Part shown: in pieces, positions 45,872 through 64,000 of the stretch | How the letters are laid out: the number at the start of each line of letters is the position of its first letter | Numbering within the stretch: position 1 is the first letter of the stretch | NCBI RefSeq assembly: GCF_024343615.1 | Contig: NZ_RJUB01000143.1 | Location: forward strand, 1-64,000 | Direction: 5' to 3' | Length of the DNA stretch: 64,000 nt | Source of the DNA: Ferruginibacter sp. HRS2-29 | GTDB taxonomy: Bacteria; Bacteroidota; Bacteroidia; Chitinophagales; Chitinophagaceae | Program-made: the position numbers and the translations under genes | The notes under the pieces: model-generated | The model's database searches: none | What the model was told of the DNA's origin: nothing | Seen by the model: only the letters and a program-made list of their open reading frames with translations

Positions 45872-45883
45872 AACACTCCTTAA

Positions 45884-46228
<345 letters not shown>

Positions 46229-46237
46229 ATAATAAAA

Positions 46238-46281: not shown

Positions 46282-46325
46282 GAACTAACTTAGAATCAAT
46301 ACCAGCAATACTTTCAGCGATTCGT
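46282..46325. promoter_or_regulatory. Leader-like segment next to the first repeat
   Basis: AT-rich DNA directly bordering the first repeat. ACTAACTTAG (46284-46293) is identical to the central part of the repeat read on the minus strand, so it is an inverted partial copy 33 bp from the first repeat. Spacer insertion in II-C systems occurs at the leader side; the intact repeat here and the decayed one at the far end support this as the leader. Confidence 0.5.
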
Positions 46326-49300
46326 GTTGTGTAAGAACTAAGTTAGTAAAAGTTTTGAAAGCAAATCACAACACCGCCGGTGTTGCTGTTGTCGCCGTTG
46401 TTGTTGTGTAAGAACTAAGTTAGTAAAAGTTTTGAAAGCAAATCACAACTACGTGGTTCAAATGGCAATCGCCGGTGGTGTTGTGTAAGAACTAAGTTAG
46501 TAAAAGTTTTGAAAGCAAATCACAACAAGGCCGTGCCAGCATCGTTCGTAAAATAGGTTGTGTAAGAACTAAGTTAGTAAAAGTTTTGAAAGCAAATCAC
46601 AACACAAAAAGCGAATGGCTAAGAAATCAGTATGTTGTGTAAGAACTAAGTTAGTAAAAGTTTTGAAAGCAAATCACAACATCGAATAAAAATTCCTTAA
46701 GTTTCATCTTGTTGTGTAAGAACTAAGTTAGTAAAAGTTTTGAAAGCAAATCACAACTCCAAGCCGGTCGTCGCGCCCTCGATCATTGTTGTGTAAGAAC
46801 TAAGTTAGTAAAAGTTTTGAAAGCAAATCACAACACGGATAGCATTATTAAGCAAATAGCTTTTGTTGTGTAAGAACTAAGTTAGTAAAAGTTTTGAAAG
46901 CAAATCACAACTTACGCTTGCAAGCGTTATATATATAACTGTTGTGTAAGAACTAAGTTAGTAAAAGTTTTGAAAGCAAATCACAACCCATAGTAATAGG
47001 CAGCACAAAAGACACTGGTTGTGTAAGAACTAAGTTAGTAAAAGTTTTGAAAGCAAATCACAACGAGAACTGACGCCAATACAGTAACTTTAACGTTGTG
47101 TAAGAACTAAGTTAGTAAAAGTTTTGAAAGCAAATCACAACAGGATGTTGCCAATGCCAGCAAGATTTCTGTTGTGTAAGAACTAAGTTAGTAAAAGTTT
47201 TGAAAGCAAATCACAACGATGTACGATGCCAGCGACGCAATTAACCAGTTGTGTAAGAACTAAGTTAGTAAAAGTTTTGAAAGCAAATCACAACGGGCAC
47301 CAGCGGCAAAGTTGATTGTTATGGTTGTGTAAGAACTAAGTTAGTAAAAGTTTTGAAAGCAAATCACAACAAGAGGGCGTCGGCGGGCTTACCGCCCAGG
47401 GTTGTGTAAGAACTAAGTTAGTAAAAGTTTTGAAAGCAAATCACAACCTACTCCGTGGCATGAGAAATTTTTCACGGTTGTGTAAGAACTAAGTTAGTAA
47501 AAGTTTTGAAAGCAAATCACAACATATGAGCGTTGACGTTTCAGGGGACAGGGGTTGTGTAAGAACTAAGTTAGTAAAAGTTTTGAAAGCAAATCACAAC
47601 AGGTAGCGGCAGCAGCGGCAAGAGGTATTAGTTGTGTAAGAACTAAGTTAGTAAAAGTTTTGAAAGCAAATCACAACTCTATCAAAGCAAAACAAATAAC
47701 AAAATTTGTTGTGTAAGAACTAAGTTAGTAAAAGTTTTGAAAGCAAATCACAACAGAAAATGAATAGTTATGGCAGAAGAAGAAGTTGTGTAAGAACTAA
47801 GTTAGTAAAAGTTTTGAAAGCAAATCACAACGGCGCTTTCCATATCTTCCCTGTAGCATCTGTTGTGTAAGAACTAAGTTAGTAAAAGTTTTGAAAGCAA
47901 ATCACAACTGCAGATCTTGTGAACCCTGCACCTACTATGTTGTGTAAGAACTAAGTTAGTAAAAGTTTTGAAAGCAAATCACAACTGATAGGCGGCAGTC
48001 CTTGCCAGGGGTTCAGTTGTGTAAGAACTAAGTTAGTAAAAGTTTTGAAAGCAAATCACAACCGATGGACGTGGAGGGCGCGCAGGATAGTGTTGTGTAA
48101 GAACTAAGTTAGTAAAAGTTTTGAAAGCAAATCACAACAATCTTCCACGCGGTCAGGTACTTATCACGTTGTGTAAGAACTAAGTTAGTAAAAGTTTTGA
48201 AAGCAAATCACAACTAGATCTTCTTTTGAAAAATGCCAACCGGAGTTGTGTAAGAACTAAGTTAGTAAAAGTTTTGAAAGCAAATCACAACGCCGAAGGG
48301 TTAATATCGCCATTCGCCTGTGTTGTGTAAGAACTAAGTTAGTAAAAGTTTTGAAAGCAAATCACAACAGCATAAGAACGCAAGATAATTCGCTTTGGGT
48401 TGTGTAAGAACTAAGTTAGTAAAAGTTTTGAAAGCAAATCACAACAGCGGCTGCTACGTACGTGCCGAACTGAACGTTGTGTAAGAACTAAGTTAGTAAA
48501 AGTTTTGAAAGCAAATCACAACTACCGCACTGATAGCCGCCCGCTGGATGGCGTTGTGTAAGAACTAAGTTAGTAAAAGTTTTGAAAGCAAATCACAACC
48601 AGATCATCGCTTATGTTCAGGAAGAAGGGGTTGTGTAAGAACTAAGTTAGTAAAAGTTTTGAAAGCAAATCACAACATCTTTCACTTTGAGAAAGCCGGT
48701 GCCAGTGTTGTGTAAGAACTAAGTTAGTAAAAGTTTTGAAAGCAAATCACAACCCATTCACCTGAAGCCCCGCCACCGCCAAAGTTGTGTAAGAACTAAG
48801 TTAGTAAAAGTTTTGAAAGCAAATCACAACTGACAGACCAGGACCAGGCTTTACGCATTAGTTGTGTAAGAACTAAGTTAGTAAAAGTTTTGAAAGCAAA
48901 TCACAACAAAATGGCAATTCAATCAGCTACCGTTAACGTTGTGTAAGAACTAAGTTAGTAAAAGTTTTGAAAGCAAATCACAACAACAACATCCTGTTTT
49001 TCCGCTTTCGATGCGTTGTGTAAGAACTAAGTTAGTAAAAGTTTTGAAAGCAAATCACAACGGGGTCGGAATCGTGCGGAAGGTCAGTTAAGTTGTGTAA
49101 GAACTAAGTTAGTAAAAGTTTTGAAAGCAAATCACAACTGCGGTAACATCATCGCAAAGGACTGCTGTGTTGTGTAAGAACTAAGTTAGTAAAAGTTTTG
49201 AAAGCAAATCACAACTATAGCCGAGCTTCTTTGCCATATCAGCTCGTTGTGTAAGAACTAAGTTAGTAAAAGTTTTGAAAGCAAATCACAACGTTTGAGT

Positions 49301-50676
49301 AGCTACTCATGATGGTTGGATTGTTGTGTAAGAACTAAGTTAGTAAAAGTTTTGAAAGCAAATCACAACAGTACCAGGGTGGTGAAAGGGGCGGTTTCTG
49401 TTGTGTAAGAACTAAGTTAGTAAAAGTTTTGAAAGCAAATCACAACACCATTTCTCACCGTCCTTAAAGATGTGAGGTTGTGTAAGAACTAAGTTAGTAA
49501 AAGTTTTGAAAGCAAATCACAACACGCTGCCATCGAACCTTTATAATTTAATTGTTGTGTAAGAACTAAGTTAGTAAAAGTTTTGAAAGCAAATCACAAC
49601 CCTGAAGTACCAGTCGCTCCCTGTACTTCTGTTGTGTAAGAACTAAGTTAGTAAAAGTTTTGAAAGCAAATCACAACACCCGACACCCTTTTTGGTACCT
49701 GGTTAGCGTTGTGTAAGAACTAAGTTAGTAAAAGTTTTGAAAGCAAATCACAACTCCGGTGTTGTTGGTAACGACTCGAATGTGTTGTGTAAGAACTAAG
49801 TTAGTAAAAGTTTTGAAAGCAAATCACAACGAGATCATTAACGTTAAGTATCCTGGAATCGTTGTGTAAGAACTAAGTTAGTAAAAGTTTTGAAAGCAAA
49901 TCACAACACAGGCCTTACCCAATATGCAACCGGTTTGTTGTGTAAGAACTAAGTTAGTAAAAGTTTTGAAAGCAAATCACAACCCAAGCCGGTCGTCGCG
50001 CCCTCGATCATTCGTTGTGTAAGAACTAAGTTAGTAAAAGTTTTGAAAGCAAATCACAACATTATTTAAATAGCAACCTTTCTGGCGTGTGTTGTGTAAG
50101 AACTAAGTTAGTAAAAGTTTTGAAAGCAAATCACAACGTGAAGATGGTTACTATAAAAAAGTCATTCGTTGTGTAAGAACTAAGTTAGTAAAAGTTTTGA
50201 AAGCAAATCACAACAGTTCCTTCAACAGTTCATCCCGTGCCCGCGTTGTGTAAGAACTAAGTTAGTAAAAGTTTTGAAAGCAAATCACAACGCGGTGAAG
50301 ATCGGCTCAAAAGGCAGGTATGTTGTGTAAGAACTAAGTTAGTAAAAGTTTTGAAAGCAAATCACAACTTCGTCGAGCCATTCAATAGACGAAGCGAAGT
50401 TGTGTAAGAACTAAGTTAGTAAAAGTTTTGAAAGCAAATCACAACATCAACCCTGCTCCAAACTATTCCGATGGTGTTGTGTAAGAACTAAGTTAGTAAA
50501 AGTTTTGAAAGCAAATCACAACCGTAGCATAATGATTGACCATCCAAAGAAGGTTGTGTAAGAACTAAGTTAGTAAAAGTTTTGAAAGCAAATCACAACT
50601 CGGCCTTATAAAAGGTTATCTGGCCATAAGTTGTGTAAGAACTAAGTTAGTAAAAGTTTTGAAAGCAAATCACAAC
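46326..50676 (-). CRISPR. CRISPR array: 57 repeats of 47 bp, 56 spacers of 29-30 nt
   Basis: I counted 57 full 47-bp repeats that look identical throughout, separated by 56 spacers (48 of 30 nt, 8 of 29 nt). On the plus strand the repeat starts GTTGTGTAAGAACTAAG and ends GAAAGCAAATCACAAC; the ends are a 6-bp inverted repeat. The anti-repeat in the tracrRNA shows that crRNAs come from the minus strand, where the repeat begins GTTGTGATTTGCTTTC. Within it TTTG (positions 8-11) and TAACTTAG (28-35) resemble a Bacteroidetes promoter, so each repeat may drive its own crRNA. Spacers 6 and 48 share 29 nt. Confidence 0.99.
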
Positions 50677-50805: not shown

Positions 50806-50824
50806 TTGTGTACAAAATACACAA
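50806..50824. promoter_or_regulatory. Operator palindrome 1 (TGTGTA-N5-TACACA), MFS/amylase promoter
   Basis: TTGTGTA-CAAAA-TACACAA is a perfect 7+7 palindrome, 22 bp before the MFS start codon. The same core appears upstream of the large amylase and twice upstream of susC. It is a candidate site for the NUDIX-type regulator of this locus. Confidence 0.75.
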
Positions 50825-50846
50825 CTAATTACTTTAAACGATTGCT

Positions 50847-52229
50847 ATGTCAACAAACCTGTTTGGTAACAAACCGAAACTTTCCATTGCACAGATCATC
50901 AACATGAGCGTAGGCTTCTTCGGGATCCAGTTTGGCTGGGATCTGCAAAGGGCCAACATGGGGCGCATCTACGAAAATCTCGGTGCTAACCCTGATGAAA
51001 TCCCTATTCTTTTTTTAGCGGCACCTTTGACAGGCCTGCTGGTTCAGCCGATCATCGGTTACCTCAGCGATCGCACATGGCACCCAAAATGGGGACGGCG
51101 CAGGCCATATTTTATGATCGGCGCCATAGTGAGTTCCATAGCATTGTTATTTATGCCACATAGCGGCACCATCTGGATGGCAGCAGGATTGCTTTGGATA
51201 TTGGATGTATTCGGCAATATAGCCATGGAACCCTTTAGGGCATTTGTTACCGATAAATTACCGGATTCGCAGGTGAACCGTGGGTTTGTGATGCAAAGCC
51301 TCATGATCGGCCTCGGGGGAAGCGTGGCATCATCGCTGCCCTGGCTCATGAAAAATGTTTTTCATTTTACGAATACCGCTGCAGCAGGAGAAATACCTGA
51401 GAATGTGAAGGTCTCCTTTTATTTAGGTGCTTTCTTCTTTCTTTCCGCAGTTCTTTACACAGTATTTACTACCAAAGAATATCCACCTGCCGATACAGGT
51501 TTCAAAGAAAAAGTAAAAGAATCCAATAAAGGTTTTGGTGGTGGTGTAAAAGAAATATTTCACGCTTTATCCAATATGCCAAAACGAATGAAGATCATTT
51601 CGTTGGTACAATTTTTTACCTGGCCCGGACTTTTCCTGATGTGGTTTTATTATTCTACAGCCGTGGCCGTAAACGTTTTTGGTGGAAAAGATGCCAGCGA
51701 TCCGGTTTATGCGGAAGGAGCAGATTTTGGCAGCCTTACACTGGCATATTATAGTGTGGTCACTTTCGTATTCGCTTTCATTTTGCCTACTATCGCTGAT
51801 AACCTTGGCCGTAAGCTTACACATGCCCTTTGTCTGCTTTGTGGCGCTGCAGGCCTTATCAGTGTTGCATTCGTACACGATAAGTATATGCTTTATGTGT
51901 GTATGACCGGGATTGGCATAGCCTGGTCGAGCATACTTTCGATGCCTTATGCAATGCTGAGCGGAGTATTGCCGAGAGACAAGGTTGGGATTTATATGGG
52001 CATTTTCAATTTCTTTATCGTATTGCCTGAGATCATTGCCTCGCTTGGTTTTGGCTGGCTAATGAGAAATGTGTTGAATAACGACCGACTGCTGGCGGTG
52101 CAGATCGGTGGTGTATTGATGGTCATCGCGGCCATCATCTGCTATTTATTTATCAACGAGAAAAAAGACAATGCAGAAGATGCTTTACTGGCCGCAAAAC
52201 TCGAGATTGAAAACGAAAGGCCGGTTTAA
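50847..52229 (+). CDS. MFS sugar transporter (maltose/maltodextrin type)
   Basis: An inner-membrane major facilitator of 460 residues with about 12 spans. It has the loop motif D-R-T-W-H-P-K-W-G-R-R-R-P-Y between TM2 and TM3 and the TM1 segment F-G-I-Q-F-G-W-D-L-Q-R-A-N, as in the GPH/SLC45-like sugar carriers (sucrose and maltose transporters). In Bacteroidetes such carriers typically accompany SusA-like enzymes and import maltose or maltodextrin from the periplasm. It is the first gene of a unit with the GH13 gene 51 bp downstream, under an operator palindrome. Confidence 0.88.
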   Translation: MSTNLFGNKPKLSIAQIINMSVGFFGIQFGWDLQRANMGRIYENLGANPDEIPILFLAAPLTGLLVQPIIGYLSDRTWHPKWGRRRPYFMIGAIVSSIALLFMPHSGTIWMAAGLLWILDVFGNIAMEPFRAFVTDKLPDSQVNRGFVMQSLMIGLGGSVASSLPWLMKNVFHFTNTAAAGEIPENVKVSFYLGAFFFLSAVLYTVFTTKEYPPADTGFKEKVKESNKGFGGGVKEIFHALSNMPKRMKIISLVQFFTWPGLFLMWFYYSTAVAVNVFGGKDASDPVYAEGADFGSLTLAYYSVVTFVFAFILPTIADNLGRKLTHALCLLCGAAGLISVAFVHDKYMLYVCMTGIGIAWSSILSMPYAMLSGVLPRDKVGIYMGIFNFFIVLPEIIASLGFGWLMRNVLNNDRLLAVQIGGVLMVIAAIICYLFINEKKDNAEDALLAAKLEIENERPV

Positions 52230-52280
52230 AAAGAGCACGCTTTAGCGGTAACAACAACTTAACTGACCAAAAAAATATTC

Positions 52281-54125
52281 ATGAAAAAATATTTATTACT
52301 GCCCATCCTTTCATTGCTTGCAAATAATCTTTTCGCACAAAACATCTCCCTCTACCCTACCAACTGGTGGACCGGGATGAAATGGAATAAAGTGCAGATA
52401 CTCGTGCATGGCAGCGGCGAAAAATTCAACGCACAAAATGTGACGCTGAATTACCCGGGCGTTACACTTACAAAAATAAACAGGCTCGAAAACCCTAATT
52501 ATTACGCATTGGATGTAACCATTTCGACTGCGGCAAAACCCGGGATCGTGAAAATAAATTTCAGCGGCAGCGGAAAAAATACCACGCTCGACTGGCCGCT
52601 GGAAAAACGCCGCGAAGGCCCGGGCAAAAAATTTGCGCAAGGCGTTACTTCCGCCGACCTGGTTTACCTGCTGATGCCCGACCGCTTCAGCAATGGCGAC
52701 GAAAGCAACGACAGGGTCGCCGGCATGAAAGATCAGTCGCTCGACAGGGATTCGATGTATCACCGCCATGGCGGCGACTTACAGGGCGTGATCAATCACC
52801 TGGATTATTTGCAGGATCTTGGCGTGACCACTGTATGGATGACACCAGTGCTGGAAAATGATATGCCAAGAAGAACAGAACATGGCTACGCGATCACCGA
52901 TCATTATAAAGTAGAACCAAGATTGGGCGGCAACGCTGCTTATAAAAAACTGAGTGATGCATTGCATGCAAAGGGTATGAAACTCATGCAGGATGCGGTG
53001 TATAATCATGTGGGCTTGTACCATTTTACGGTAGTAGACAAACCAATGAAAGATTGGTTGAACGAATGGCCGAAGTTTACGCAGACGACTTATAAAGACC
53101 AGGTACTGTTTGATCCGCATGCGGCGCCTTCGCAGGTAAAACAAATGAGCGACGGATGGTTCACCAACGAAATGCCGGATATGAACGAGCGCAATCCCTT
53201 CGTAGCCAACTTTCTCATACAAAATGCTATCTGGAGCGTAGAAGAATTTGGTGTGGACGGATGGAGGATCGATACCTACCCTTACAACGACCTGCCTTTT
53301 ATGAACCGCTGCAACAAAGCACTGTATGATGAATACCCATCCATCACATTGTTTGGGGAAACATGGGTACACGGCGTGCCCAACCAGAGTTATTTCTGCC
53401 AGAATAATTACAACATCCCTTTCAAAAGCAACCTGCAGGCAACCACCGATTTTCAGTTGTTGTTCTATGGCATCACCCCTACGGTAAACGATAAGTTTGG
53501 CTGGACAGATGGTGTAAATAAGCTCTACACTGTGGCTGCACAGGATTTCGTGTACAAGGACCCGATGCGCCAGGTGATTTTCTTAGACAACCACGATCTG
53601 CCTAGATTTTATTCGGTGGTAGGCGAAGACACTACCAAATACAAAATAGCACTCTCCTGGTTGCTCACTTTCCGCGGGGTACCACAGATGTATTATGGTA
53701 TGGAAAACCTCATGACCGGTTTCACCAATCCTGATGGGCTGGTACGCTCCGATTTCATGGGCGGCTGGAAAAACGACAAGCTCAATAAATTTACGGCGGC
53801 CGGCAGGACAAATAAAGAGAACAGCATTTTCAATCACATCCGCACACTCGCCAACTTCAGAAAAAATTCATCGGCCATCCAAACCGGAAAGCTGATGCAA
53901 TATTCTCCGGATGATGGGCTGTACGTATACTTCAGGTACGACGACAAACAGACGGTCATGTGTGTAATGAACACCGCTGAAAAGGAAAAAGAAGTCGATC
54001 TTAATAAATATGCTGAAAGAACCGATGGTTTCAGAACCGCTATCGATGTATTGAACGGAGAACTGAGAGGGAAGAAATTCAATATTCCGGCGAAGCAGAT
54101 GTATGTACTGGAATTGAAAAAGTGA
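52281..54125 (+). CDS. Periplasmic GH13 cyclomaltodextrinase/neopullulanase, SusA-like
   Basis: A 614-residue enzyme with a signal peptide ending near L-F-A-Q. An N-terminal beta domain (about 20-120) precedes the (beta/alpha)8 barrel with the GH13 motifs: D-A-V-Y-N-H, the nucleophile in G-W-R-I-D-T-Y-P-Y, the acid/base in L-F-G-E-T-W-V-H-G, and F-L-D-N-H-D. A C-terminal beta domain closes it. This is the architecture of SusA-type neopullulanases, which cut maltodextrins in the periplasm. It follows the MFS carrier by 51 bp, giving a hydrolyse-and-import pair. Confidence 0.92.
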   Translation: MKKYLLLPILSLLANNLFAQNISLYPTNWWTGMKWNKVQILVHGSGEKFNAQNVTLNYPGVTLTKINRLENPNYYALDVTISTAAKPGIVKINFSGSGKNTTLDWPLEKRREGPGKKFAQGVTSADLVYLLMPDRFSNGDESNDRVAGMKDQSLDRDSMYHRHGGDLQGVINHLDYLQDLGVTTVWMTPVLENDMPRRTEHGYAITDHYKVEPRLGGNAAYKKLSDALHAKGMKLMQDAVYNHVGLYHFTVVDKPMKDWLNEWPKFTQTTYKDQVLFDPHAAPSQVKQMSDGWFTNEMPDMNERNPFVANFLIQNAIWSVEEFGVDGWRIDTYPYNDLPFMNRCNKALYDEYPSITLFGETWVHGVPNQSYFCQNNYNIPFKSNLQATTDFQLLFYGITPTVNDKFGWTDGVNKLYTVAAQDFVYKDPMRQVIFLDNHDLPRFYSVVGEDTTKYKIALSWLLTFRGVPQMYYGMENLMTGFTNPDGLVRSDFMGGWKNDKLNKFTAAGRTNKENSIFNHIRTLANFRKNSSAIQTGKLMQYSPDDGLYVYFRYDDKQTVMCVMNTAEKEKEVDLNKYAERTDGFRTAIDVLNGELRGKKFNIPAKQMYVLELKK

Positions 54126-54300
54126 TGATTACACGAATTGAAACGAATTACACGAATCAGCTAAGATAGACCATAAAAGGGCAGGTAATATATAGATAAG
54201 GTCTTTCATATTACCTTTCATTGGATTATTATATGCTTTTTCCTTTACCCTTCGCTAATTCGTGTAATTCGCGAAAATTCGTGCAATCTGTATTTTAAAA
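54126..54300. repeat. ACGAATT-type inverted repeat
   Basis: ACACGAATTGAAACGAATTA and CACGAATCAGC at the left end are answered by GCTAATTCGTGTAATTCGCG and AATTCGTGC at the right. The pieces are about 100 bp apart and may terminate the MFS-GH13 transcript. Confidence 0.75.
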
Positions 54301-54330
54301 AGTGGATATTTTATTACCCCGCAATTAAAA

Positions 54331-54353
54331 TAATGTGTTAGATTTACACATTA
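54331..54353. promoter_or_regulatory. Operator palindrome 2, large amylase promoter
   Basis: TAATGTGT-TAGATTT-ACACATTA is a perfect 8+8 palindrome. Its core TGTGTT-AGATT-TACACA differs in one base from the TGTGTA-N5-TACACA core of the other three sites. It lies 14 bp before the start codon at 54367. Confidence 0.72.
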
Positions 54354-54366
54354 AATTAACTTGCTG

Positions 54367-57300
54367 ATGAAAAGTCTTTCGATTGCTATCGCATGCGTGC
54401 TAGTATCCTTCGTAGCTCATGCGCAACGCCTGCTGGTAACCACACCAGAATTTCCAACCGATGCCGCTTCTGTTACTATAAGTGTGGATTGTAATAAAGG
54501 CAACAAAGGATTGCTGAATTACCAGGGCGGAAGTTCCAACAACGTTTTTGTACATGTGGGGGTTATCACCAACCTGAGCACAGGCCCTACAGACTGGAAA
54601 TACACCAGGTTTACCTGGGGTTCCACCGATGCCGCTGCAAAAGCTACGGTAGACGGCGCGAACCTTTATTCGTACACAATTGCCAACCCGCGTACATTTT
54701 TCGGAGTACCCGTAGGCGAAACGATCCAGAAGATCACCATCATTTTCCGGAATGGAGATGGTTCTTTAAAACAGGTAAATTCTGATGGCAGCGATATGTA
54801 TGTACCTGTTTACCCGGCCGGGCAATATGCCATCAAAATGATACTTCCTCCGTCGGAACCACGGTTCGTTCCATGGCTGGAGCCTATCACAGCAAGTGTT
54901 GGTTCTACCATCGCGTTCAAAGCCGCGGCTTCCCAGCCATCAAATCTTTCCTTGAATTTCAACGGTACCCAGGTAGCGACTGCCGTTCCTCCAAAAGATA
55001 CCATCGGCGTTCAGCAGACTATCACGGTGGCCTGCGAACAAAAGATGATCGTGACGGGCACGGCAGGTTCCAATACAGCAAAAGATTCGACCGTATTCAA
55101 TGTAGCAAATCCCGTGAACGTAGCGGCATTGCCCGCAGGTGTTCAGGAGGGTATAAATTATCTTTCCGGAAATACATCTGCTACACTTGTTTTATTTGCC
55201 CCTGGAAAAACAACCGTTTCCCTCATCGGCGATTTCAACAACTGGTCAGCATCCTGCACCAGCCAGATGAATAAAACACCGGATGGAAATTATTGGTGGG
55301 CAACCGTTACAGGCCTTACTCCGGGAACGGAATACGGCTTCCAATACCTGGTGGATAATACCATAAGGATTGCAGACCCATATACACAAAAAGTACTTGA
55401 CCCCAACAACGACCAGTTCATCAACGCCGTTACCTACCCTAACCTGAAGCCTTATCCAACCGGGCTTACAACAGATGTGGTGGGTATACTTCAGACTGCA
55501 GAACCACAGTATACCTGGCAGACGACCACGTACACGAAGCCCGATAAAAAGAACCTGATGATCTATGAATTGCTGATCAGGGATTTTACTGCGGAACATA
55601 GTTATCAATCGCTGATAGATTCATTTCAGTATTTCAAAAATCTTGGTATCAATGCCATCGAGCTGATGCCGGTGAACGAATTTACAGGCAATGAAAGCTG
55701 GGGGTATAACCCAACTTATTATTTTGCGCCGGATAAATATTACGGTACAAAAAACAAGCTGAAAGAATTCGTTGATAAATGCCACGCCAATGGTATAGCC
55801 GTATTACTTGATGTGGTATACAACCAACTGGATAACGGTGCACCGCAGGCGAAATTATATTGGGATGCTGCCAACAACAGGCCTGCTGCCAACAACCCAT
55901 GGATGAACATTTCGGCACCGCATCCCTACAGCGTTTTCAACGACCTCAACCATACATCTACCGCTACGCAATACCTTGTAAAACGTGCGCTGGATTTCTG
56001 GATAACCGAATACAAAATTGATGGTTACAGGATGGACCTTGCCAAAGGATTTACACAAACCGCCACCAACACAACTACAGTAGAAAATTACGATGCATCC
56101 CGTGTTGCAAATCTCAACAGGTACTATGACGCCACCATCGCCGCTCACCCGGATGCATACATGATCCTCGAATTTTTGGGAACATTACCTAGCCAGGAAG
56201 AACAGGAATATGCTGCCCATGGATTCATGCTTTGGGGAAATAACAATTTCCGTTACAACCAGGTAACGATGGGCTTTGCAGACAACTCAGACATTTCACC
56301 GATCGCATATAGCAGCCCATCGAGAGCTTATAACAATCCTGCATCAGTAGGTTATATGGAAAGCCACGATGAAGAAAGGACGATGTATAAAAATCTCCAG
56401 TTCGGAAACGTAAGCGGCTCCTACAATGTAAAAAATCTCGCTACCGCGTTGGCAAGGGAAGAAGCTGCCGCAACGGTTTTCTTCACTGTACCAGGCCCTA
56501 AAATGATCTGGCAGTTTGAAGAAAGAGGATATGATATCCCGCTCACATTCGGCGGATCGAATGTGGCCAACAAACCCCCTCATTGGGAATATATGAATGA
56601 TGCAAACCGCAGGCATTTGTATGATACTTACAAAAGCATCATCGATCTCCGGTTGAATAATCCTGCAATCTTCAACAACACTTCTTTCACGTATGATTTT
56701 GGCAGCGGACTTGTAAAAGTTTTCCAGATAGCCGATCCTTCGGCAACGGGAAGAAAAGTGACTGTGGTGGCCAATATGGATGTGGTGCCACAAACAAAAT
56801 CTGTTACATTTCAATCCACAGGTGATTGGGTAAATTACATCAGCAATGGTACGGGTACAGCCATCAACGGCACTACCAGTACAACTTTCAACCTTTCATC
56901 CACAACACAATCGATCACTTTACAACCAGGCGAATACCACATTTATATGTCGGCCGTACCTTGTAATACAGCGGCTCCGACAGTGACCACACCGGTAAAT
57001 ATTTGCCAGAATGCAACGGCTATCCCGCTGACTGCCACAGGAACAGGGTTGCTTTGGTACACCAGCTCCACAGGCGGAACCGGGTCTGCAACAGCCCCGA
57101 CTCCTGCAACAGGAACAGTTGGAAGCACCACTTATTATGTGAGCCAGACGGCAGGCTGCGAAGGCCCAAGAGCCGCCATCGTGGTAAACATCACCGCATT
57201 GCCTGCAGCACCAACAGCTACCACGCCGGTAAGTTATTGCCTCAATGCTACAGCAGCACCGCTGACCGCAACGGGTACCAACCTTTTGTGGTACACAGGA

Positions 57301-58935
57301 TCAACAGGCGGAACGGGTTCTGCAACAGCGCCCACTCCATCTACCACCACCATCGGTAATACCCTCTATTATGTAAGCCAGACTCCCGGCACTTGTGAAA
57401 GTCCGCGTACAGCCATTACCGTTACCATCACTGCAGGTACGCCTGCACCAACTGTAACTACTCCGGTAAATTATTGCCTGAATGCTACGGCAGTTCCGCT
57501 GACCGCAACAGGCACAGCCTTGCTGTGGTATACCGGCCCAACTGGTGGTACAGGTTCAGCAACAGCGCCTACTCCACTCACAACAACAGCAGGTAATACC
57601 ACATATTATGTGAGCCAGACCCAAAGCTGCGGCGAAAGCCCAAGAGCAGCTATTGTTGTAACAGTAAACCCGGCGGTAACTTTCACGGTTGCCACCACAC
57701 CCGCAGGCTGTGGCAATAACGCCGGCACGATCACCATTACCACTACATCCGGCACCACACCATTCAACTACACACTCAATGGCGGCCCTGCACAGGCTTC
57801 GAATATCTTCACCGGACTTGCAAGCGGCAATCACATCGTTGTTGTAACCGATTCAAAAGGTTGCAGCAGCACCGTAACGGTAACCATCGCCGGAGCAACA
57901 ATACCTGCAGCTCCCACCGTAACGGCTACCCAGACTTATTGCCAGAATGCTACTGCAAGCCCGCTGACCGCAACAGGTACAAACCTGCTGTGGTACACCA
58001 CTGCAACCGGCGGAACAGGAACCGCAACAGCTCCTACTCCATCTACGGCTAATGCAGGCACTACCAGTTATTATGTATCACAATCAAATGGCACCTGCGA
58101 AAGCCCGAGAGCAATGATCACTGTTACAGTGAATCCATTGCCGGGAACACCTGCCGTAACTTCACCGGTTACCTATTGCCAGAATACTATCGCCACTGCA
58201 TTACAGGCTACAGGCAACAGCCTGCTATGGTATACCACAGCTACTGGTGGCACGGGTACTTCAACAGCCATCATACCCGCTACCAACACAAGCGGTACTA
58301 CCAGTTATTATGTATCGCAAAGCAACAGTTGTGGCGAAGGCCCGCGTACTATGATACAGGTAAATGTAAATGCAACACCTGCCGCACCATCAGGATTGAA
58401 TGTCACCAACATCGGCAATGGCTCCGCAACACTTAACTGGAACGGACAGGCTGGTAATTTTTACACGGTAGAATACAAAGCGGAAAATACAGCCGGTTGG
58501 ACAACTGCGGGCACAGGTATCACCAACAACAATATCGTGCTGGGCAATCTTACCCAGGGGATCACCTATCAATGGAGGGTAAGTGCCAATTGCAGCGCAA
58601 CCAACAGTGGCGTGTATACGCAAAGCACATTTGCCACCGCTTCGAGGAACAATACCATCCTCAACCTGAGGGACGGTATCGGAATAAAAATATCACCAAA
58701 CCCGGTTCACTCAAGCGCCATCATCGATTACAGCGTGAGCGGATATGGCCAGGTGATCATTTCGATCGTAAGCGCCAAAGGCGAAAGGGTGAAAGTATTG
58801 ATGAACACAGCGAAAGTTTCCGGACAGCATTATCTGAATATCACCAATGAATTCAATAACTTGTCGGCAGGAACATATTTCCTGAGGGTTCAGCAGAATA
58901 AAAAAGAAAACTACATCGCATTTGTAAAACAATAA
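54367..58935 (+). CDS. Secreted modular GH13 amylase with T9SS sorting tail
   Basis: A 1522-residue secreted enzyme (ATG at 54367; the TTG at 54361 is two codons earlier). Signal peptide to about A-H-A-Q; N-terminal beta domains (20-250); a CBM48-like domain (T-V-S-L-I-G-D-F-N-N-W, about 275-370); a GH13 barrel (about 400-800) with D-V-V-Y-N, nucleophile in D-G-Y-R-M-D-L-A-K, acid/base in M-I-L-E-F-L-G, and E-S-H-D-E-E-R. Then come five ~78-residue Ig-like repeats with C-x-N-A-T...L-L-W-Y-T, interrupted after the third by a SprB-like repeat (G-C-G-N-N-A-G-T-I). A fibronectin III domain and a type A sorting tail (I-S-P-N-P-V ... Y-F-L-R-V) finish it. Confidence 0.92.
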   Translation: MKSLSIAIACVLVSFVAHAQRLLVTTPEFPTDAASVTISVDCNKGNKGLLNYQGGSSNNVFVHVGVITNLSTGPTDWKYTRFTWGSTDAAAKATVDGANLYSYTIANPRTFFGVPVGETIQKITIIFRNGDGSLKQVNSDGSDMYVPVYPAGQYAIKMILPPSEPRFVPWLEPITASVGSTIAFKAAASQPSNLSLNFNGTQVATAVPPKDTIGVQQTITVACEQKMIVTGTAGSNTAKDSTVFNVANPVNVAALPAGVQEGINYLSGNTSATLVLFAPGKTTVSLIGDFNNWSASCTSQMNKTPDGNYWWATVTGLTPGTEYGFQYLVDNTIRIADPYTQKVLDPNNDQFINAVTYPNLKPYPTGLTTDVVGILQTAEPQYTWQTTTYTKPDKKNLMIYELLIRDFTAEHSYQSLIDSFQYFKNLGINAIELMPVNEFTGNESWGYNPTYYFAPDKYYGTKNKLKEFVDKCHANGIAVLLDVVYNQLDNGAPQAKLYWDAANNRPAANNPWMNISAPHPYSVFNDLNHTSTATQYLVKRALDFWITEYKIDGYRMDLAKGFTQTATNTTTVENYDASRVANLNRYYDATIAAHPDAYMILEFLGTLPSQEEQEYAAHGFMLWGNNNFRYNQVTMGFADNSDISPIAYSSPSRAYNNPASVGYMESHDEERTMYKNLQFGNVSGSYNVKNLATALAREEAAATVFFTVPGPKMIWQFEERGYDIPLTFGGSNVANKPPHWEYMNDANRRHLYDTYKSIIDLRLNNPAIFNNTSFTYDFGSGLVKVFQIADPSATGRKVTVVANMDVVPQTKSVTFQSTGDWVNYISNGTGTAINGTTSTTFNLSSTTQSITLQPGEYHIYMSAVPCNTAAPTVTTPVNICQNATAIPLTATGTGLLWYTSSTGGTGSATAPTPATGTVGSTTYYVSQTAGCEGPRAAIVVNITALPAAPTATTPVSYCLNATAAPLTATGTNLLWYTGSTGGTGSATAPTPSTTTIGNTLYYVSQTPGTCESPRTAITVTITAGTPAPTVTTPVNYCLNATAVPLTATGTALLWYTGPTGGTGSATAPTPLTTTAGNTTYYVSQTQSCGESPRAAIVVTVNPAVTFTVATTPAGCGNNAGTITITTTSGTTPFNYTLNGGPAQASNIFTGLASGNHIVVVTDSKGCSSTVTVTIAGATIPAAPTVTATQTYCQNATASPLTATGTNLLWYTTATGGTGTATAPTPSTANAGTTSYYVSQSNGTCESPRAMITVTVNPLPGTPAVTSPVTYCQNTIATALQATGNSLLWYTTATGGTGTSTAIIPATNTSGTTSYYVSQSNSCGEGPRTMIQVNVNATPAAPSGLNVTNIGNGSATLNWNGQAGNFYTVEYKAENTAGWTTAGTGITNNNIVLGNLTQGITYQWRVSANCSATNSGVYTQSTFATASRNNTILNLRDGIGIKISPNPVHSSAIIDYSVSGYGQVIISIVSAKGERVKVLMNTAKVSGQHYLNITNEFNNLSAGTYFLRVQQNKKENYIAFVKQ
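56955..58380 (+). repeat. Tandem Ig-like domain repeats within the amylase gene
   Basis: Five related ~235-bp units encode domains with the shared C-x-N-A-T...L-W-Y-T...T-G-G-T-G...Y-Y-V-S-Q pattern. Neighbouring units 1-3 are closest to each other at the DNA level, as are 4 and 5. One unrelated unit (about 57670-57905) separates the two groups. Confidence 0.85.
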
Positions 58936-58952
58936 TTCAACACCATAGAGAG

Positions 58953-59690
58953 ATGATGGAATTAGAAAGTAAATTATCGCAGAGCGAAAAAAGTATCCTG
59001 ACCATTCAGTCGGAAGTGCAGAATACCAACCGCATCGCATTATCAGTGGATTGTGTGATCTTCGGTTTCGATGAAAACAAGCTTAAAGTGCTCCTGATCC
59101 GGAGCGATCTGAAAAAATATAAAGGAAAATGGTCGTTGCTGGGCGATCTTATCAAGCCGGCGGAAGACCTGGACAAATCGGCCTACAGGATATTGCAGCA
59201 GCGTACCGGGCTGGATGACATCTACCTGGAGCAGGTGCATACTTTTGGCGAGATAAAACGCCATCCGGCCGGCCGTGTGATCACGGTAGCCTATTATTCC
59301 CTGATCAATATCCAGCACCACAAGCTGAAGATCTACGATAACGAACTGCACTGGCATGATGTAAAAAATGTGACCGACCTGGCATTCGACCATCAGGAGA
59401 TCTTCGATACGTGTTACAAACGTTTGCAAAAAAGGATACTCGAACATCCATTGGGTTTCAATTTGTTACCCAAAAAATTCTCCCTCCGGGAATTACAAAA
59501 CCTCTACGAATCCATCCTCGATACCAAGATGGACAGGCGCAATTTCCGTAAGAAATTTTTCTCGATGGACCTGCTGACCGATCTCAATGAAATGGAACAG
59601 GATGTACCCCACCGTCCGGGCAAATTGTACCAGTTCAATTTCAAAAAATACGAGAAGAAAAAGAAAACCTGGATAGGGATTGACTTTTAA
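58953..59690 (+). CDS. NUDIX-domain transcriptional regulator (NrtR/AraR-like)
   Basis: A 245-residue protein with an N-terminal NUDIX fold (about 25-160; C-V-I-F-G-F-D-E-N-K-L-K-V-L-L-I-R) and a C-terminal winged helix (about 170-235; F-S-L-R-E-L-Q-N-L-Y-E-S and R-R-N-F-R-K-K-F). The Nudix box is degenerate: after G-D-L-I-K-P-A-E-D the catalytic R-E-x-x-E-E segment reads R-I-L-Q-Q-R-T-G, so hydrolysis is unlikely and the fold probably senses a sugar metabolite or nucleotide-sugar. It starts 17 bp after the amylase stop. Regulators of this type control sugar loci in Bacteroidetes; the four TGTGTA-N5-TACACA sites nearby are the likely targets. Confidence 0.88.
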   Translation: MMELESKLSQSEKSILTIQSEVQNTNRIALSVDCVIFGFDENKLKVLLIRSDLKKYKGKWSLLGDLIKPAEDLDKSAYRILQQRTGLDDIYLEQVHTFGEIKRHPAGRVITVAYYSLINIQHHKLKIYDNELHWHDVKNVTDLAFDHQEIFDTCYKRLQKRILEHPLGFNLLPKKFSLRELQNLYESILDTKMDRRNFRKKFFSMDLLTDLNEMEQDVPHRPGKLYQFNFKKYEKKKKTWIGIDF

Positions 59691-59734
59691 TGTGAATGCA
59701 GCTATTACTGAGTTTCATGGCTCTTTTACGAGAA

Positions 59735-59850
59735 GGTTTTAATAAGGATGCTGGATGCTTGTCGCTGGATATCAACGCGTAGAAGTGCAGGAAGCTTGAC
59801 AATTTCGACGTTCCGGCAACCCGCATCTGGCATCCGGCATCGGCTTTCTC
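59735..59850. repeat. GGATGCTGGATGC-type inverted repeat
   Basis: GGATGCTGGATGCTTGTCG (left) is answered by GCATCTGGCATCCGGCATC (right) about 70 bp on. It lies after the regulator gene and may terminate it. Confidence 0.7.
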
Positions 59851-59909
59851 AAATTAAGTGGATAAATTCTTTAACAATTTATTTATATATTATAAAAAGT
59901 GTTTAATAT

Positions 59910-59926
59910 TGTGTACTTTTTACACA
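59910..59926. promoter_or_regulatory. Operator palindrome 3a, susC promoter
   Basis: TGTGTA-CTTTT-TACACA, a perfect 6+6 palindrome with N5, 61 bp before the susC ATG. It is the distal of two sites. Confidence 0.75.
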
Positions 59927-59934
59927 CTGCTTAT

Positions 59935-59951
59935 TGTGTAAAAAGTACACG
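59935..59951. promoter_or_regulatory. Operator palindrome 3b, susC promoter
   Basis: TGTGTA-AAAAG-TACACG matches the core in 11 of 12 arm positions. Its centre is 25 bp from site 3a, so two dimers could bind side by side. Confidence 0.72.
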
Positions 59952-59986: not shown

Positions 59987-62974
59987 ATGAAAAAAACGAC
60001 AATTACCAAAATTGTAACTGTTGCTATGCTGTTTATCCTGGCCTCAGTATCAGCATTAGCGCAAAGAGTGGTTACCGGTAAGGTAACAAACTCCAAAGAT
60101 GGTTCCGCCGTAGCCGGTGTTACGGTTACAATAAAAGGAACTAAAAATTCCGTTCAGACAAATTCAGATGGTACTTACAGGATCGACGCTCCTGCCAATG
60201 CCCGCCTCGTGTTCTCTTCTGTGGGCTTTACTACGCAGGAATCTGCCGCGAACGACAATGGAAGTATCACCCTGGTGGAAGCCACTAACCGCCTCGAAGA
60301 CGTGGTAGTGGTAGCCTATGGCATCCGTAAGAAATCCGACCTTACAGGTTCGGTGACATCTGTTGGTGTAAAGGATTTCCAGAAAGGGAATATCAACTCT
60401 ACCGAGCAATTGCTCGTGGGTAAAGTTGCCGGTCTGGAAGTAACTACCGGCGGCGGTGCTGCTGGTGGTGGAAGCCGTATCCGTATTAGGGGTGGCGCAT
60501 CGCTCAATGCTTCCAATGATCCGTTGGTGGTGATCGATGGTGTCCCTGTAGAAGGAAATGGAATTTCCGGTGGCCCAAATATCCTGGGTACTATCAACCC
60601 GGACGATATTGAATCCATCAGTATTCTCAAAGATGCATCGGCCACAGCATTATACGGGTCGCGGGCATCCAATGGGGTACTTCTGGTAACCACAAAAAAA
60701 GGGCGCAGCGGCAAGATACTTTTCAACTTCAATACTAAATTATCGATTGGGCATATTGGCGATAAAGTAGATGTACTCACGGGCGACCAGATCCGTGCAG
60801 CCATTACTGCAGATGCGACAGCAACAGGCAACAATACTTATTTAAATAAATTAGGTACGGCCAATACCAACTGGCAGGACCTTATTTACCAGGATGCTTT
60901 TGGCGCCGACAATAACCTGAGCGCTTCAGGGGCATTCAAAGCAGGCAAGAACTCAATCCCTTTCCGGGCTTCTCTGGGTTATTTGAACCAGGAAGGAACT
61001 TTGAAAACAAACCAGTTCGACAGGGTCAGCACTTCTTTGAACCTGAATCCTAAATTTTTTGACGATCATCTGGCGGTAAATATCGCGGCTAAATATTCGC
61101 ATATTAAAAACGTATTCGCTGATGAGGGCGCTATCGGTAGTGCAGTAAACTTTGATCCTACTCAAGCACCGTACGATGCTGCCAATAAATATGGCGGTTA
61201 CTTTCAGTGGCTGAACGGAAGTGGTGTCCCGATCAATACTAACGGGCCATCCATCGCCCCCAACCCACTTGACCAACTTTACCTGCGGGATAACCAATCA
61301 AACGTGAATCGTTTTATCGGTAATGCCCAGCTTGATTATAAGCTCCATTTTCTGCCCGACCTGCATCTCTTATTAAATATGGGTATCGACAGGACAATTG
61401 GTAAAGGAACAGACCGTGTAGATTCAACTTCTGTTACAGCCTACCATACAAAAGGGCGTTATGGGCAGTACGAACAACGCAAAACAAATAAACTGTTTGA
61501 TGCATCCGTTTTATATGCCAAGGAAATAAGCAAAGATTTCAGGTTCGACCTCCTGGCGGGTTATACGTACCAGACATTCAGGACAGAAGACGTAGGCTTT
61601 TACGCATTTACGCCGCAGGGAGATACTATTCCTGGTACAAAACCGGCAGCTGAATTATTTCCAAACGAATTCCGTCTGGAGTCTTATCTCAGTCGTATCA
61701 ATGCAACTTTTTTCAACAAATACCTGCTGACCGCCTCTATCCGTCGTGATGCGAGCTCTAAATTTTCTCCCGAAAACCGTGTGGGTTATTTCCCTTCAGT
61801 AGCACTGGCATGGAAGCTGAAAGAGGATTTTTTCAGTAAAGTAAGGGTGATGAGCGACCTGAAGCTACGCCTTGGTTATGGTAAAACCGGTAACCAGGAT
61901 GGCATCGGTTACTATTCTTATCTCTCCCGTTACAACAGAAGTACCGAAACCGCTCAATACCAGTTTGGAAGTAATTTTTACAGCTTTCTCCGCCCATCTG
62001 CCTACGTGAGAGACCTGAAATGGGAAACTACCGAGACCTATAATGCAGGGCTGGATTTTGGTTTTCTTAATAATCGCATAACAGGTTCGGTTGATGTTTA
62101 TAAAAAGAAAACTTCCGATCTTTTAAGCACTGTGCCGATAGCACCTGGTGCTAATTTCGACATCTCTATTACTACTAACGTGGGGAATGTAGAAAATAAT
62201 GGTGTGGAATTTTCTATTAACACTAACCCGATCCGCAGTAAAGATTTTAACTGGGACCTCGGTTTCAATTTTACTTATAATAAATCCGAGATCACCAACC
62301 TGCTGAAAAACCCGGATCCTAATTTCAAGGGCATTACGGTAGGTGGAATTGCAGGTGCTACCGGCAACTCTATCAACAGGTTTGCCGTAGGATACAGCCC
62401 GTATGTTTTTTATGTTTTCAAACAAGTGTATGATGTAGCTGGAAAGCCAATTGAAGGTTTGTATGAAGATATCGACAGGAATGGCATAATAGATGAAAAT
62501 GATAAATATTATTACAAAAAACCTGCAGCGGATGTGTTGTTAGGATTCAATACCCAGCTGACCTATAAAAAATTCTCGCTTGGTATCGCAGGCCACGGTG
62601 CATTTGGAAACTATGTTTACAATAACCTGAATTCTAATAACGGAATACTTGCGAACGTTCGCGATCCGTTGGGAATTATCCGCAATGCAACTACCGATTT
62701 CCTGGAAACCAATTTCAAGCTTAGAAACGTATATTCAGATTATTATTTGGAGAACGCTTCATTCTTCCGGATAGACAATATCAACTTCGGTTATAATTTT
62801 GGACGTATTATCCGCAATAAAGCAAACCTGCGTTTATCGGCAAACATTCAAAACGTGCATACGTTCACAAAATATACCGGTTTGGATCCTGAAAACTCAA
62901 GTAATCTCGGTGTCGACAATGCCATTTATCCACGTCCAAGAATTTACACCATTGGTGCAAGTCTTGATTTTTAA
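59987..62974 (+). CDS. SusC/RagA-type TonB-dependent receptor
   Basis: An outer-membrane receptor that imports glycan oligomers with TonB energy. The 995-residue protein has a signal peptide ending at A-L-A-Q, a carboxypeptidase-D-like regulatory beta domain (G-K-V-T-N-S-K-D-G-S-A-V-A-G-V, about 30-110), a TonB box-like stretch (E-D-V-V-V-V-A-Y-G), a plug (R-I-R-I-R-G-G-A-S-L-N-A, about 115-230) and a 22-strand barrel ending in I-G-A-S-L-D-F. Two operator palindromes lie upstream. Its lipoprotein partner susD begins 18 bp after its stop. Substrate inferred to be starch or maltodextrin from the neighbours. Confidence 0.96.
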   Translation: MKKTTITKIVTVAMLFILASVSALAQRVVTGKVTNSKDGSAVAGVTVTIKGTKNSVQTNSDGTYRIDAPANARLVFSSVGFTTQESAANDNGSITLVEATNRLEDVVVVAYGIRKKSDLTGSVTSVGVKDFQKGNINSTEQLLVGKVAGLEVTTGGGAAGGGSRIRIRGGASLNASNDPLVVIDGVPVEGNGISGGPNILGTINPDDIESISILKDASATALYGSRASNGVLLVTTKKGRSGKILFNFNTKLSIGHIGDKVDVLTGDQIRAAITADATATGNNTYLNKLGTANTNWQDLIYQDAFGADNNLSASGAFKAGKNSIPFRASLGYLNQEGTLKTNQFDRVSTSLNLNPKFFDDHLAVNIAAKYSHIKNVFADEGAIGSAVNFDPTQAPYDAANKYGGYFQWLNGSGVPINTNGPSIAPNPLDQLYLRDNQSNVNRFIGNAQLDYKLHFLPDLHLLLNMGIDRTIGKGTDRVDSTSVTAYHTKGRYGQYEQRKTNKLFDASVLYAKEISKDFRFDLLAGYTYQTFRTEDVGFYAFTPQGDTIPGTKPAAELFPNEFRLESYLSRINATFFNKYLLTASIRRDASSKFSPENRVGYFPSVALAWKLKEDFFSKVRVMSDLKLRLGYGKTGNQDGIGYYSYLSRYNRSTETAQYQFGSNFYSFLRPSAYVRDLKWETTETYNAGLDFGFLNNRITGSVDVYKKKTSDLLSTVPIAPGANFDISITTNVGNVENNGVEFSINTNPIRSKDFNWDLGFNFTYNKSEITNLLKNPDPNFKGITVGGIAGATGNSINRFAVGYSPYVFYVFKQVYDVAGKPIEGLYEDIDRNGIIDENDKYYYKKPAADVLLGFNTQLTYKKFSLGIAGHGAFGNYVYNNLNSNNGILANVRDPLGIIRNATTDFLETNFKLRNVYSDYYLENASFFRIDNINFGYNFGRIIRNKANLRLSANIQNVHTFTKYTGLDPENSSNLGVDNAIYPRPRIYTIGASLDF

Positions 62975-62992
62975 CGTAAAAAAATAATTGTG

Positions 62993-64000
62993 ATGAAAAA
63001 TAACATCTTTAAAATAACTTCCACGCTCATGGCGGCAGCTATGCTGTTTACTTCGTGCGCAAAAAATCTGGATCTTTTTCCTGCAAATGATCTCACCGGC
63101 GAACAGGTTTACTCGACCCCGGCAGGATATAAAAGCATTCTGGCAAAAATTTATGGCACCCTGGCTATTTCCGGTAACCAGGGCCCCGCGGGAAGCCCCG
63201 ATATAGGCGGCGGGCTGGATGAAGGTTCACAGGTAGGTTTTATCAGGGCATTTTTTAATCTCCAGGAATTACCAACCGATGAGGCAGTAGTAGCCTGGGA
63301 TGACCAGACTATAAAGAATTTCCATAATCTTAACTGGAATAGTTCAGATCCATTCATACTCGGAATGTACGCTCGCCCTATCTATAACATTACATTGATC
63401 AATGAATATCTCAGGCAGGCTACAGATGAAAACCTTACCAAAAACAATATCACCGGTGCAGATGCCGAAGACATCAAAAAATCACGCGCCGAGGCGAGGT
63501 TCATGAGGGCATTCAATTACTGGGTAATGATCGACCTGTTTGGTAAATCAACCTTCATAACTGAAGCTGATGGAGTAGGAACATTCCTGCCAGGCGAAAA
63601 ATCAAGAGCCGAACTGTTCACTTATGTTGAATCAGAGTTGCTGGCCATTCAAAATGACCTTTCTCCTGTTAAAACTGCAGAATATGGTCGTGTAGACCAG
63701 GGTGCATGCTGGGGTTTGCTGGCAAGATTATACCTCAATGCAAAAGTTTACACAGGCGCAGACAAATACACCGAAGCGATTACTTTTTCCAAGAAAGTGA
63801 TCGGCGGCGGATACTCATTGAGTCCGCGTTATGCTACCCTGTTCATGGCCGATAATGACAAACAGAAAAACGAGTTTATTTTTACCGCAAACTGTGATGG
63901 TTTAAGAACACAAGGGTTTGGTAATACTTCCTTTTTCATCCATGCTCCGGCAGGTGGAGACAATGCAGATTATGGCGCTTCAGGTGGATGGGCCGGATAC
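62993..64000 (+). CDS. SusD/RagB-family glycan-binding lipoprotein (cut by window end)
   Basis: The frame starts at ATG 62993 and stays open to the window edge (336 codons). It has a lipoprotein signal with Cys22 in M-L-F-T-S-C-A-K, followed by N-L-D-L-F-P-A-N-D-L-T and A-E-A-R-F-M-R-A-F-N-Y-W-V-M-I-D-L-F-G, both typical of SusD. SusD caps the SusC barrel and binds the polymer at the cell surface. The remaining C-terminal part lies outside this window. It is co-transcribed with susC. Confidence 0.95.
   Translation, partial: MKNNIFKITSTLMAAAMLFTSCAKNLDLFPANDLTGEQVYSTPAGYKSILAKIYGTLAISGNQGPAGSPDIGGGLDEGSQVGFIRAFFNLQELPTDEAVVAWDDQTIKNFHNLNWNSSDPFILGMYARPIYNITLINEYLRQATDENLTKNNITGADAEDIKKSRAEARFMRAFNYWVMIDLFGKSTFITEADGVGTFLPGEKSRAELFTYVESELLAIQNDLSPVKTAEYGRVDQGACWGLLARLYLNAKVYTGADKYTEAITFSKKVIGGGYSLSPRYATLFMADNDKQKNEFIFTANCDGLRTQGFGNTSFFIHAPAGGDNADYGASGGWAGY

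Follow-up and report, generated by a model that had tools for sequence, protein, structure and literature searches.

Starch loci founded the idea of the polysaccharide utilization locus, and their control has been taught through SusR. In Ferruginibacter sp. HRS2-29, a starch locus lies towards the end of a 64-kb stretch of contig NZ_RJUB01000143.1 (positions 1 to 64,000, here called the window), and it holds four copies of the palindrome TGTGTA-N5-TACACA together with a gene for a 245-residue protein that combines a Nudix domain with an NrtR/AraR-type winged helix (58953-59690, plus strand). The closest described system is BtAraR (BT0354; PDB 5bs6/5dd4/5ddg/5deq), the NrtR-family L-arabinose repressor of Bacteroides thetaiotaomicron, which releases its DNA upon binding L-arabinose (PMC4666351). 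The NrtR-family proteins AraR and XylR are described as sugar regulators of Bacteroidetes, AraR also for SusCD operons, and SusR is described for starch genes (PMC4666351; PMC3878776).

The window protein shares with XylR (BT0791), known here by description alone, a place in the sugar branch of the Bacteroidetes NrtR family, but XylR is predicted for xylose. With SoNrtR of Shewanella oneidensis (ADP-ribose-responsive; PDB 3gz5) it has in common the layout of a Nudix domain plus a winged helix, but its targets are others and it lacks the ADP-ribose arginine. Like SusR of B. thetaiotaomicron it would govern a susCD-type starch locus; SusR, however, is a membrane sensor with long direct-repeat sites, whereas the regulator here is a small Nudix protein paired with a 17-bp palindrome. 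Judging from sequence comparisons, we consider it very probable that the NrtR/AraR-type protein encoded next to the palindrome uses it as its operator and acts as a sugar-released repressor of alpha-glucan genes. It would then represent a new alpha-glucan branch within a known type of regulator, AraR-like in its working without being AraR. The sequence-only reading of this DNA had called such control of starch genes unusual. No NrtR/Nudix regulator of starch genes was found among the matches listed in the open-access literature. The unusual part is smaller than claimed because AraR and XylR of the same family have already been described for Bacteroidetes sugar genes.

The palindrome and its putative reader

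Allowing at most one mismatch, the window contains four copies of the palindrome against 0.12 expected, none of 100 shuffles reaches four, and a chance origin of these copies is excluded. With up to two mismatches there are 5 against 2.3 expected, and 7 of 100 shuffles reach 5, so that at this threshold the count alone is weak and uninformative. All four copies proposed by the sequence-only reading are real, except that the first begins at 50807 and not at 50808, and each sits, as had been claimed, in a promoter region upstream of an alpha-glucan gene, about 25-69 bp from the start. Operator 1 (50807-50823, no mismatch) is centred 32 bp upstream of the start codon of an MFS transporter gene followed by a GH13 gene; operator 2 (54334-54350, one mismatch) lies about 25 bp upstream of the likely ATG (54367) of a secreted amylase-type gene; operators 3 (59910-59926, no mismatch) and 4 (59935-59951, one mismatch) form a tandem pair 25 bp apart, with centres 69 and 44 bp upstream of the susC start. 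The core of operator 3, GTGT-ACTTTTT-ACAC, has the same spacing as the crystal operator of BtAraR, GTGT-TACTTTT-ACAC (Table 2 of PMC4666351). Two further likenesses to BtAraR are the tandem operators, its 21-bp sites standing 3 bp apart in most araM promoters, and the inclusion of SusCD among the target operons (PMC4666351).

Pfam matches to both domains place the protein in the NrtR family (PF21906, the NrtR winged helix, 88.3 bits with a cut-off of 27; PF00293, Nudix, 34.8 bits with a cut-off of 21.1), and it is indeed the sole regulator among the five open reading frames (ORFs) annotated in 50.8-63 kb. Its best solved relative is BtAraR (E-value 1.7e-52), the match covering residues 28-238 with 82 of 211 aligned residues identical; SoNrtR is matched at an E-value of 2.2e-22. 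The BtAraR DNA contacts D178, R180, N181, R183 and K184 (AraR numbering) and the wing residue R205 are unchanged in all 58 orthologs, each of which has R in place of K179 and H in place of the wing residue K204. The proposal that the Nudix protein is the reader of the palindrome thus finds support in the BtAraR-like geometry of the operator, in these contact residues and in the co-occurrence of the two across genomes.

The host encodes a second NrtR-type protein (L088; C3:116245-116916, minus strand), which adjoins a divergent GH3 glycosidase gene and has different DNA-contact residues; it probably governs a separate sugar regulon. Either this protein or a Crp-type factor might be supposed to bind the palindrome, the neighbouring Nudix gene being incidental, and at first look the site does resemble a Crp site, whose consensus is TGTGA-N6-TCACA. 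This is very improbable: the palindrome spans 17 bp and not 16; all 80 collected sites have T as their fifth base (in part through selection, since no more than one mismatch was allowed in collecting them); four of six recognition-helix positions are different in the second NrtR (N-R-G-N-Y-R vs D-R-R-N-R-K); and across genomes the sites track the presence of the regulator. The Bacteroidetes -7 box is TAnnTTTG, and a near match to it, TAnnATTG, ends on the TG of the site in 15 of 82 sites against 8.4 expected under independent columns; this overlap is suggestive only and is not used as support.

Family and ligand pocket of the regulator

In a FastTree analysis of 93 proteins (the 58 orthologs, the host's own paralog, 32 distant homologs, BtAraR and SoNrtR) the orthologs form one group (support 0.875), which is joined by two proteins from another family of the order (L243 and L244; support 0.992), whose loci likewise place amylase and SusCD homologs behind the regulator gene. 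Unlike the window protein, BtAraR belongs to another group, of 17 (support 0.998). The closest named relatives of the regulator come from Chitinophagales/Sphingobacteriales metagenome-assembled genomes and from Ferruginibacter, and we therefore take the family to be Chitinophagaceae. One of them, the ortholog of Ferruginibacter paludis CECT 8366 (L137), is 81% identical, and one exact and two one-mismatch sites occur in its locus. As in BtAraR, the Nudix box is impaired: the catalytic signature, REUxEE (PMC4666351), reads R79-I-L-Q-Q-R84-T-G-L in the window protein, its three glutamates being replaced by I80, Q83 and R84, and hydrolysis is therefore unlikely.

The roles of the BtAraR pocket residues, including the arabinose contacts R34, R86 and H131, are set out in section 14 of PMC4666351. 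All 58 orthologs keep R86, F129 and H131 (R86 and H131 being R103 and H147 in the window protein), and R34 is changed in all of them, to S in 55 (S51 in the window protein) and to C in 3, so that the set of AraR arabinose contacts is complete in none. Further differences from BtAraR are F36 to L (54) or I (4), G48 to D (57) or N (1) and L67 to R (58 of 58). By its sequence, the regulator is a Nudix protein of the AraR/NrtR type whose sugar pocket differs. Position 67 matches K76 of SoNrtR, which touches phosphate, and our guess is therefore that the effector is a phosphorylated sugar; the same position is C in L243 and L244, which speaks against its being essential.

The pocket also bears on whether the protein could be an ADP-ribose- or nicotinamide adenine dinucleotide (NAD)-responsive NrtR that couples the starch genes to NAD status and not to sugar. 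Such a role would fit the Pfam match to NrtR_WHD and the fact that homologs linked to NAMPT-like or NadM-like genes have the same GTGT-N7-ACAC core. Against it, the NCBIfam model for ADP-ribose-responsive regulators (NF050029) scores 136.5 bits with a cut-off of 400, the linked genes are mostly alpha-glucan genes, and R98 of SoNrtR (BtAraR position 89), the ADP-ribose-contacting arginine (PMC4666351), is replaced by A, G, S, N or V in every one of the 58 orthologs (the window protein has A106), whereas it is R in two NAMPT-linked homologs. We therefore give NAD control a very small probability and retain a sugar-responsive repressor as the preferred reading.

The two homologs that keep this arginine, L245 and L260, are linked to NAMPT-like genes (by eye) and are likely true NAD regulators in Bacteroidota; GTGT-N7-ACAC sites precede both regulator genes themselves and, in L245, the NAMPT-like gene. 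Other distant homologs (L249, L253, L268) combine BtAraR-like pockets (R34, F36, G48, F49) with a position at arabinose genes (by eye). A further pocket type (E36, Y48, I49) was seen in L250, L254 and L258. In L250 and L254 a GTGT-N7-ACAC site stands some 120 bp ahead of the match, and the neighbouring genes look, by eye, like those of phosphofructokinase and GAPDH; this pocket possibly reflects a glycolytic specificity. Altogether, 20 of the 32 distant loci have an intergenic GTGT-N7-ACAC site in the stretch covered, 11 have none and 1 has only a coding one. Hence, the half-site seems common to the branch, and the pocket varies with gene context.

Sites and putative targets across genomes

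We compared 59 loci: those of 57 orthologs found in 56 further genomes within the family, each with its surroundings (mostly 20 kb), together with the host's own locus and its own paralog. Amylase and SusCDEF homologs are frequent neighbours of the regulator in them. Exact palindromes are intergenic in 35 cases and lie in ORF interiors in none, the corresponding counts being 47 vs 8 with one mismatch and 26 vs 25 with two. A de novo search over all 4-bp inverted repeats with gaps of 0-14 (3840 patterns; 58 and 35 loci, own included) ranked GTGT-N7-ACAC first both in the 600 bp downstream of the regulator, where it occurs in 37 of 58 loci (mean of patterns 0.8), and in the 300 bp upstream of the amylase, where it occurs in 23 of the 35 loci with a placeable start (mean 0.31). 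A site like operator 2 stands upstream of the amylase homolog in many relatives. Among 80 loci of named genomes, which overlap with the first set, 54 carry a site with at most one mismatch; in this set 82 sites are intergenic and 7 coding, with 60 nt at either end of each ORF counted as intergenic, although called ORFs leave 9.4% of the bases uncovered. That the palindromes are structural (hairpins or terminators) or chance A/T-rich repeats, as their shortness and their setting in A/T-rich intergenic DNA might suggest, is accordingly improbable in the extreme: the arms are conserved with the 5-bp centre free, the sites lie near start codons and between genes, and the ranking of de novo patterns speaks strongly against it.

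From the centre of the site to the start codon the median distance is 38 bp (70 sites), which fits repression. The same protein might instead bind the operator as an activator or dual regulator, as the tandem sites and some sites placed more than 150 bp ahead of the susC start as called (L049, L051, L076, L077, among others) would allow; this short median distance and the release of DNA by BtAraR on sugar binding make it unlikely, and simple repression is the reading we follow here.

In the host genome (5.07 Mb, 161 contigs) exact palindromes occur at 4 places, 2 of them in the window, and one-mismatch palindromes at 15, again with 2 in the window. Of these 19 places, the 15 outside the window comprise 7 inside ORFs and 8 between genes, two of the places (at the ends of contigs C4 and C23) carrying the same stretch. 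Alpha-glucan genes, three in all, adjoin the intergenic places on C8, C9, C4 and C23 but not those on C123, C28, C10 and C128 (C128:3497), so that 8 of the 12 intergenic places of the genome precede alpha-glucan genes. A sequence model was built from 73 sites of other genomes, and the search of the host genome with it scored 150 of 2237 first-look candidates. Its five best places are C8:19758 (E-value 5e-4) and the four window sites (0.004 to 0.03), all alpha-glucan promoters, followed by C28:118 (0.05), C9:52425 (0.14), C128:3493 (0.21) and C4/C23 (0.35). Alpha-glucan genes follow 7 of these 9, the last two (C9:52425 and C4/C23) having E-values that are weak alone.

The site at C8:19758 is just upstream of a secreted protein of 803 residues (with 57 bp between the starts of the site and of the ORF), which the Pfam amylase model misses at an E-value of 0.001 and whose best solved relatives are alpha-amylases (E-value 3.8e-41). 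C9:52425 precedes a 462-residue GH13 protein with a SusG-type C-terminal domain, and the C4/C23 site an 887-residue GH77 amylomaltase with CBM20. The exact site C123:169314 was not assigned to the regulon and is left, like C28:118 (at a contig end, its gene not found) and C128:3497 (before a clpX-like gene), as chance or unassigned. The motif is hence rare, with most of its intergenic copies at alpha-glucan genes, and not a common element unrelated to sugar genes. The starch regulon envisaged by the sequence-only reading is supported at the locus itself and would extend more widely, to unlinked amylase and amylomaltase genes.

Among 294 genomes of the family, 178 encode a strong ortholog of the regulator (E-value at most 1e-70), 54 only weaker homologs and 62 none. 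Exact sites number 340, 23 and 18 in these classes, against 17, 6 and 6 for a reversed-pattern control, that is, 340 vs 17 in the genomes with a strong ortholog and 41 vs 12 in the other 116; at least one exact site is present in 122 of 178, 17 of 54 and 15 of 62 genomes, respectively. With the model (E-value at most 0.1) six ortholog-bearing genomes gave 36 distinct places, at least 2 each, and 20 genomes without a strong ortholog gave 7 places, in 6 genomes. Among seven sites inspected separately in genomes without a strong ortholog, five lie inside ORFs, two stand where a gene resembling phosphoribosyl-pyrophosphate synthetase begins, close to an NrtR homolog (one by Pfam, one by eye), and none is at an alpha-glucan gene. 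Six of the 20 genomes keep the amylase (best match in each 45-52% identity; 9 loci), and the core GTGT-N7-ACAC was found within 1.5 kb of it in none of 8 of these loci, the ninth (L368) being cut before the promoter. One of these eight amylase loci, L362, has a site with two mismatches. Its genome, G074 (90% complete), also gives the best model hit among the 20, so that the assembly, rather than the genome itself, may be what lacks the regulator.

Away from the regulator, 33 exact sites of strong-ortholog genomes were inspected. Nineteen precede clear alpha-glucan genes (amylases, MFS with GH13, GH31, GH77 with CBM20, a CBM21 lipoprotein, a phosphorylase, and SusC at 44-46% identity) and two more probable ones (L276, L290). 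Three precede glycolytic or related enzymes, namely phosphofructokinase, a DeoC/LacD-family aldolase, which we read as a class I fructose-bisphosphate aldolase, and an aldehyde dehydrogenase; one stands before a nucleotidyltransferase and one before a Nudix/nucleotidylyltransferase (NadM-like) gene near another NrtR homolog. The remaining seven precede other genes or none (L282, L291, L294, L304, L305, L306, L310). In the six whole genomes 23 of the 36 model places precede alpha-glucan genes or the regulator: 9 of 17 in G241, 5 of 8 in G231, 3 of 3 each in G085, G065 and G114, and 0 of 2 in G229. The G065 tally includes the regulator's own promoter, eight places (G241, G065) are also among the 33, and a G085 SusC of 30% identity was counted because a CBM20 SusE-type gene and an amylase follow it. 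In G241, exact or strong operators were also seen before large secreted-looking proteins (L294, L306, L341, L342) with type IX secretion system (T9SS) tails and SprB, MAM, YDG or BNR-associated domains.

Several observations weigh against the proposed operator-regulator pair and its alpha-glucan role. The motif alone does not name the regulator, because NAD-type NrtR homologs use the same core. One of the four exact host sites sits between KUP-like and peptidase-like genes (named by eye); 56 of the 178 strong-ortholog genomes are without an exact site, and 26 of the 80 named loci, some on short contigs, hold no site with up to one mismatch; the 300 bp upstream of the regulator are led by TGTA-N5-TACA (14 of 58), not by the core. 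For 13 of the 36 model places, including 8 in G241, no alpha-glucan gene was assigned, and neither hit of G229 is at such a gene. In G229 (L082) the gene after the regulator encodes a fused MeaB/methylmalonyl-CoA-mutase-like protein, and in L083, L103 and L104 SusCD homologs and an FG-GAP/UnbV_ASPIC protein lie directly behind the regulator, an arrangement that replaces the starch SusCDEF genes in some genera, although L083 additionally holds the amylase and a CBM20 SusE-type gene. Finally, seven of eight Chitinophaga loci (L165, L182, L183, L184, L186, L191, L192) carry an exact site downstream of the regulator in stretches without a homolog of the window amylase or SusC (L186 being cut upstream); in the eighth, L171 of C. 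japonensis, the site has one mismatch and the identity of SusCD is 29-32%.

L082 and L091 likewise combine a regulator ortholog and an exact operator downstream of it, and an alpha-glucan homolog was not found nearby. In such Chitinophaga loci and in L082 and L091 the regulon may have moved to another pathway.

A gene of about 700 residues often stands beside the regulator; first taken for a SusB-like enzyme, it proved to be ligA in the three loci tested. This NAD-dependent DNA ligase (Pfam-confirmed in L049, L058 and L062) adjoins either the regulator or its amylase. Many loci have an equally long gene at that position, and in several the divergent genes are separated by DNA with operator-like sites.

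Predicted mechanism and layout of the locus

The sites and their conservation, their co-occurrence with the regulator, the retained DNA contacts and the altered ligand pocket are computed results; direct binding, repression, the effector and autoregulation are inferred. A dimer of the regulator would sit on the operator through its two winged helices, one to each GTGT half-site, with the Nudix domain, lacking its catalytic glutamates, serving as the sensor. In the absence of alpha-glucans the protein would most likely occupy the sites near the starts and block transcription of the MFS/GH13, amylase-regulator and susCDEF genes and of the unlinked amylase and amylomaltase genes. A starch-derived sugar or sugar phosphate would then bind in the Nudix pocket and turn the winged helices away, releasing the DNA. 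More speculatively, and with considerable doubt on our part, the protein might be a family-wide master regulator of alpha-glucan use in the role that SusR has in Bacteroides, with a pocket rebuilt (S34, L36, D48, R67) for a phosphorylated starch product such as glucose 1-phosphate, governing the uptake of starch along with extracellular amylases, GH31/GH77/GH97 enzymes and glycogen phosphorylase, and extending in some genomes to glycolysis (phosphofructokinase, an aldolase).

Much of a Bacteroidota family seems to use a repurposed Nudix protein for starch control. If so, one fold would serve NAD, pentoses and starch with its DNA half-site kept, the change of the pocket could be predicted at the level of residues, and alpha-glucan regulons would be readable from sequence in many uncultured genomes.

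All genes of the locus within the window lie on the plus strand. The 460-residue MFS sugar transporter (50847-52229) and the 614-residue GH13 cyclomaltodextrinase-like enzyme (52281-54125) are annotated ORFs, the former probably the first gene of an operon with the latter. The secreted GH13 amylase-type protein (54361-58935; 1524 residues if read from TTG) displays GH13 and CBM48 domains, Ig-like repeats and a T9SS-type tail. Only 17 nt separate it from the regulator gene, which on account of this gap is probably co-transcribed with the amylase and governed by operator 2; the regulator would thus probably be autoregulated through that operator. Next come susC, encoding a TonB-dependent outer-membrane protein of 995 residues (59987-62974), and susD (62990-64000), which is cut by the window end and followed beyond it by two SusE/SusF-type genes and a GH31 gene. 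Hence the neighbours are MFS, GH13, amylase, SusC, SusD, SusE-type and GH31 genes instead of the arabinose genes of BtAraR.

Upstream, genes for Cas9 (1510 residues), Cas1 and Cas2 and a CRISPR array occupy 40446-50676. The array (46326-50676) consists of 57 exact copies of a 47-bp repeat with a period of about 77, and ends 130 bp before operator 1, so that the MFS promoter adjoins it. The CRISPR repeat starts with GTTGTGTA, a half-site that we take for chance.

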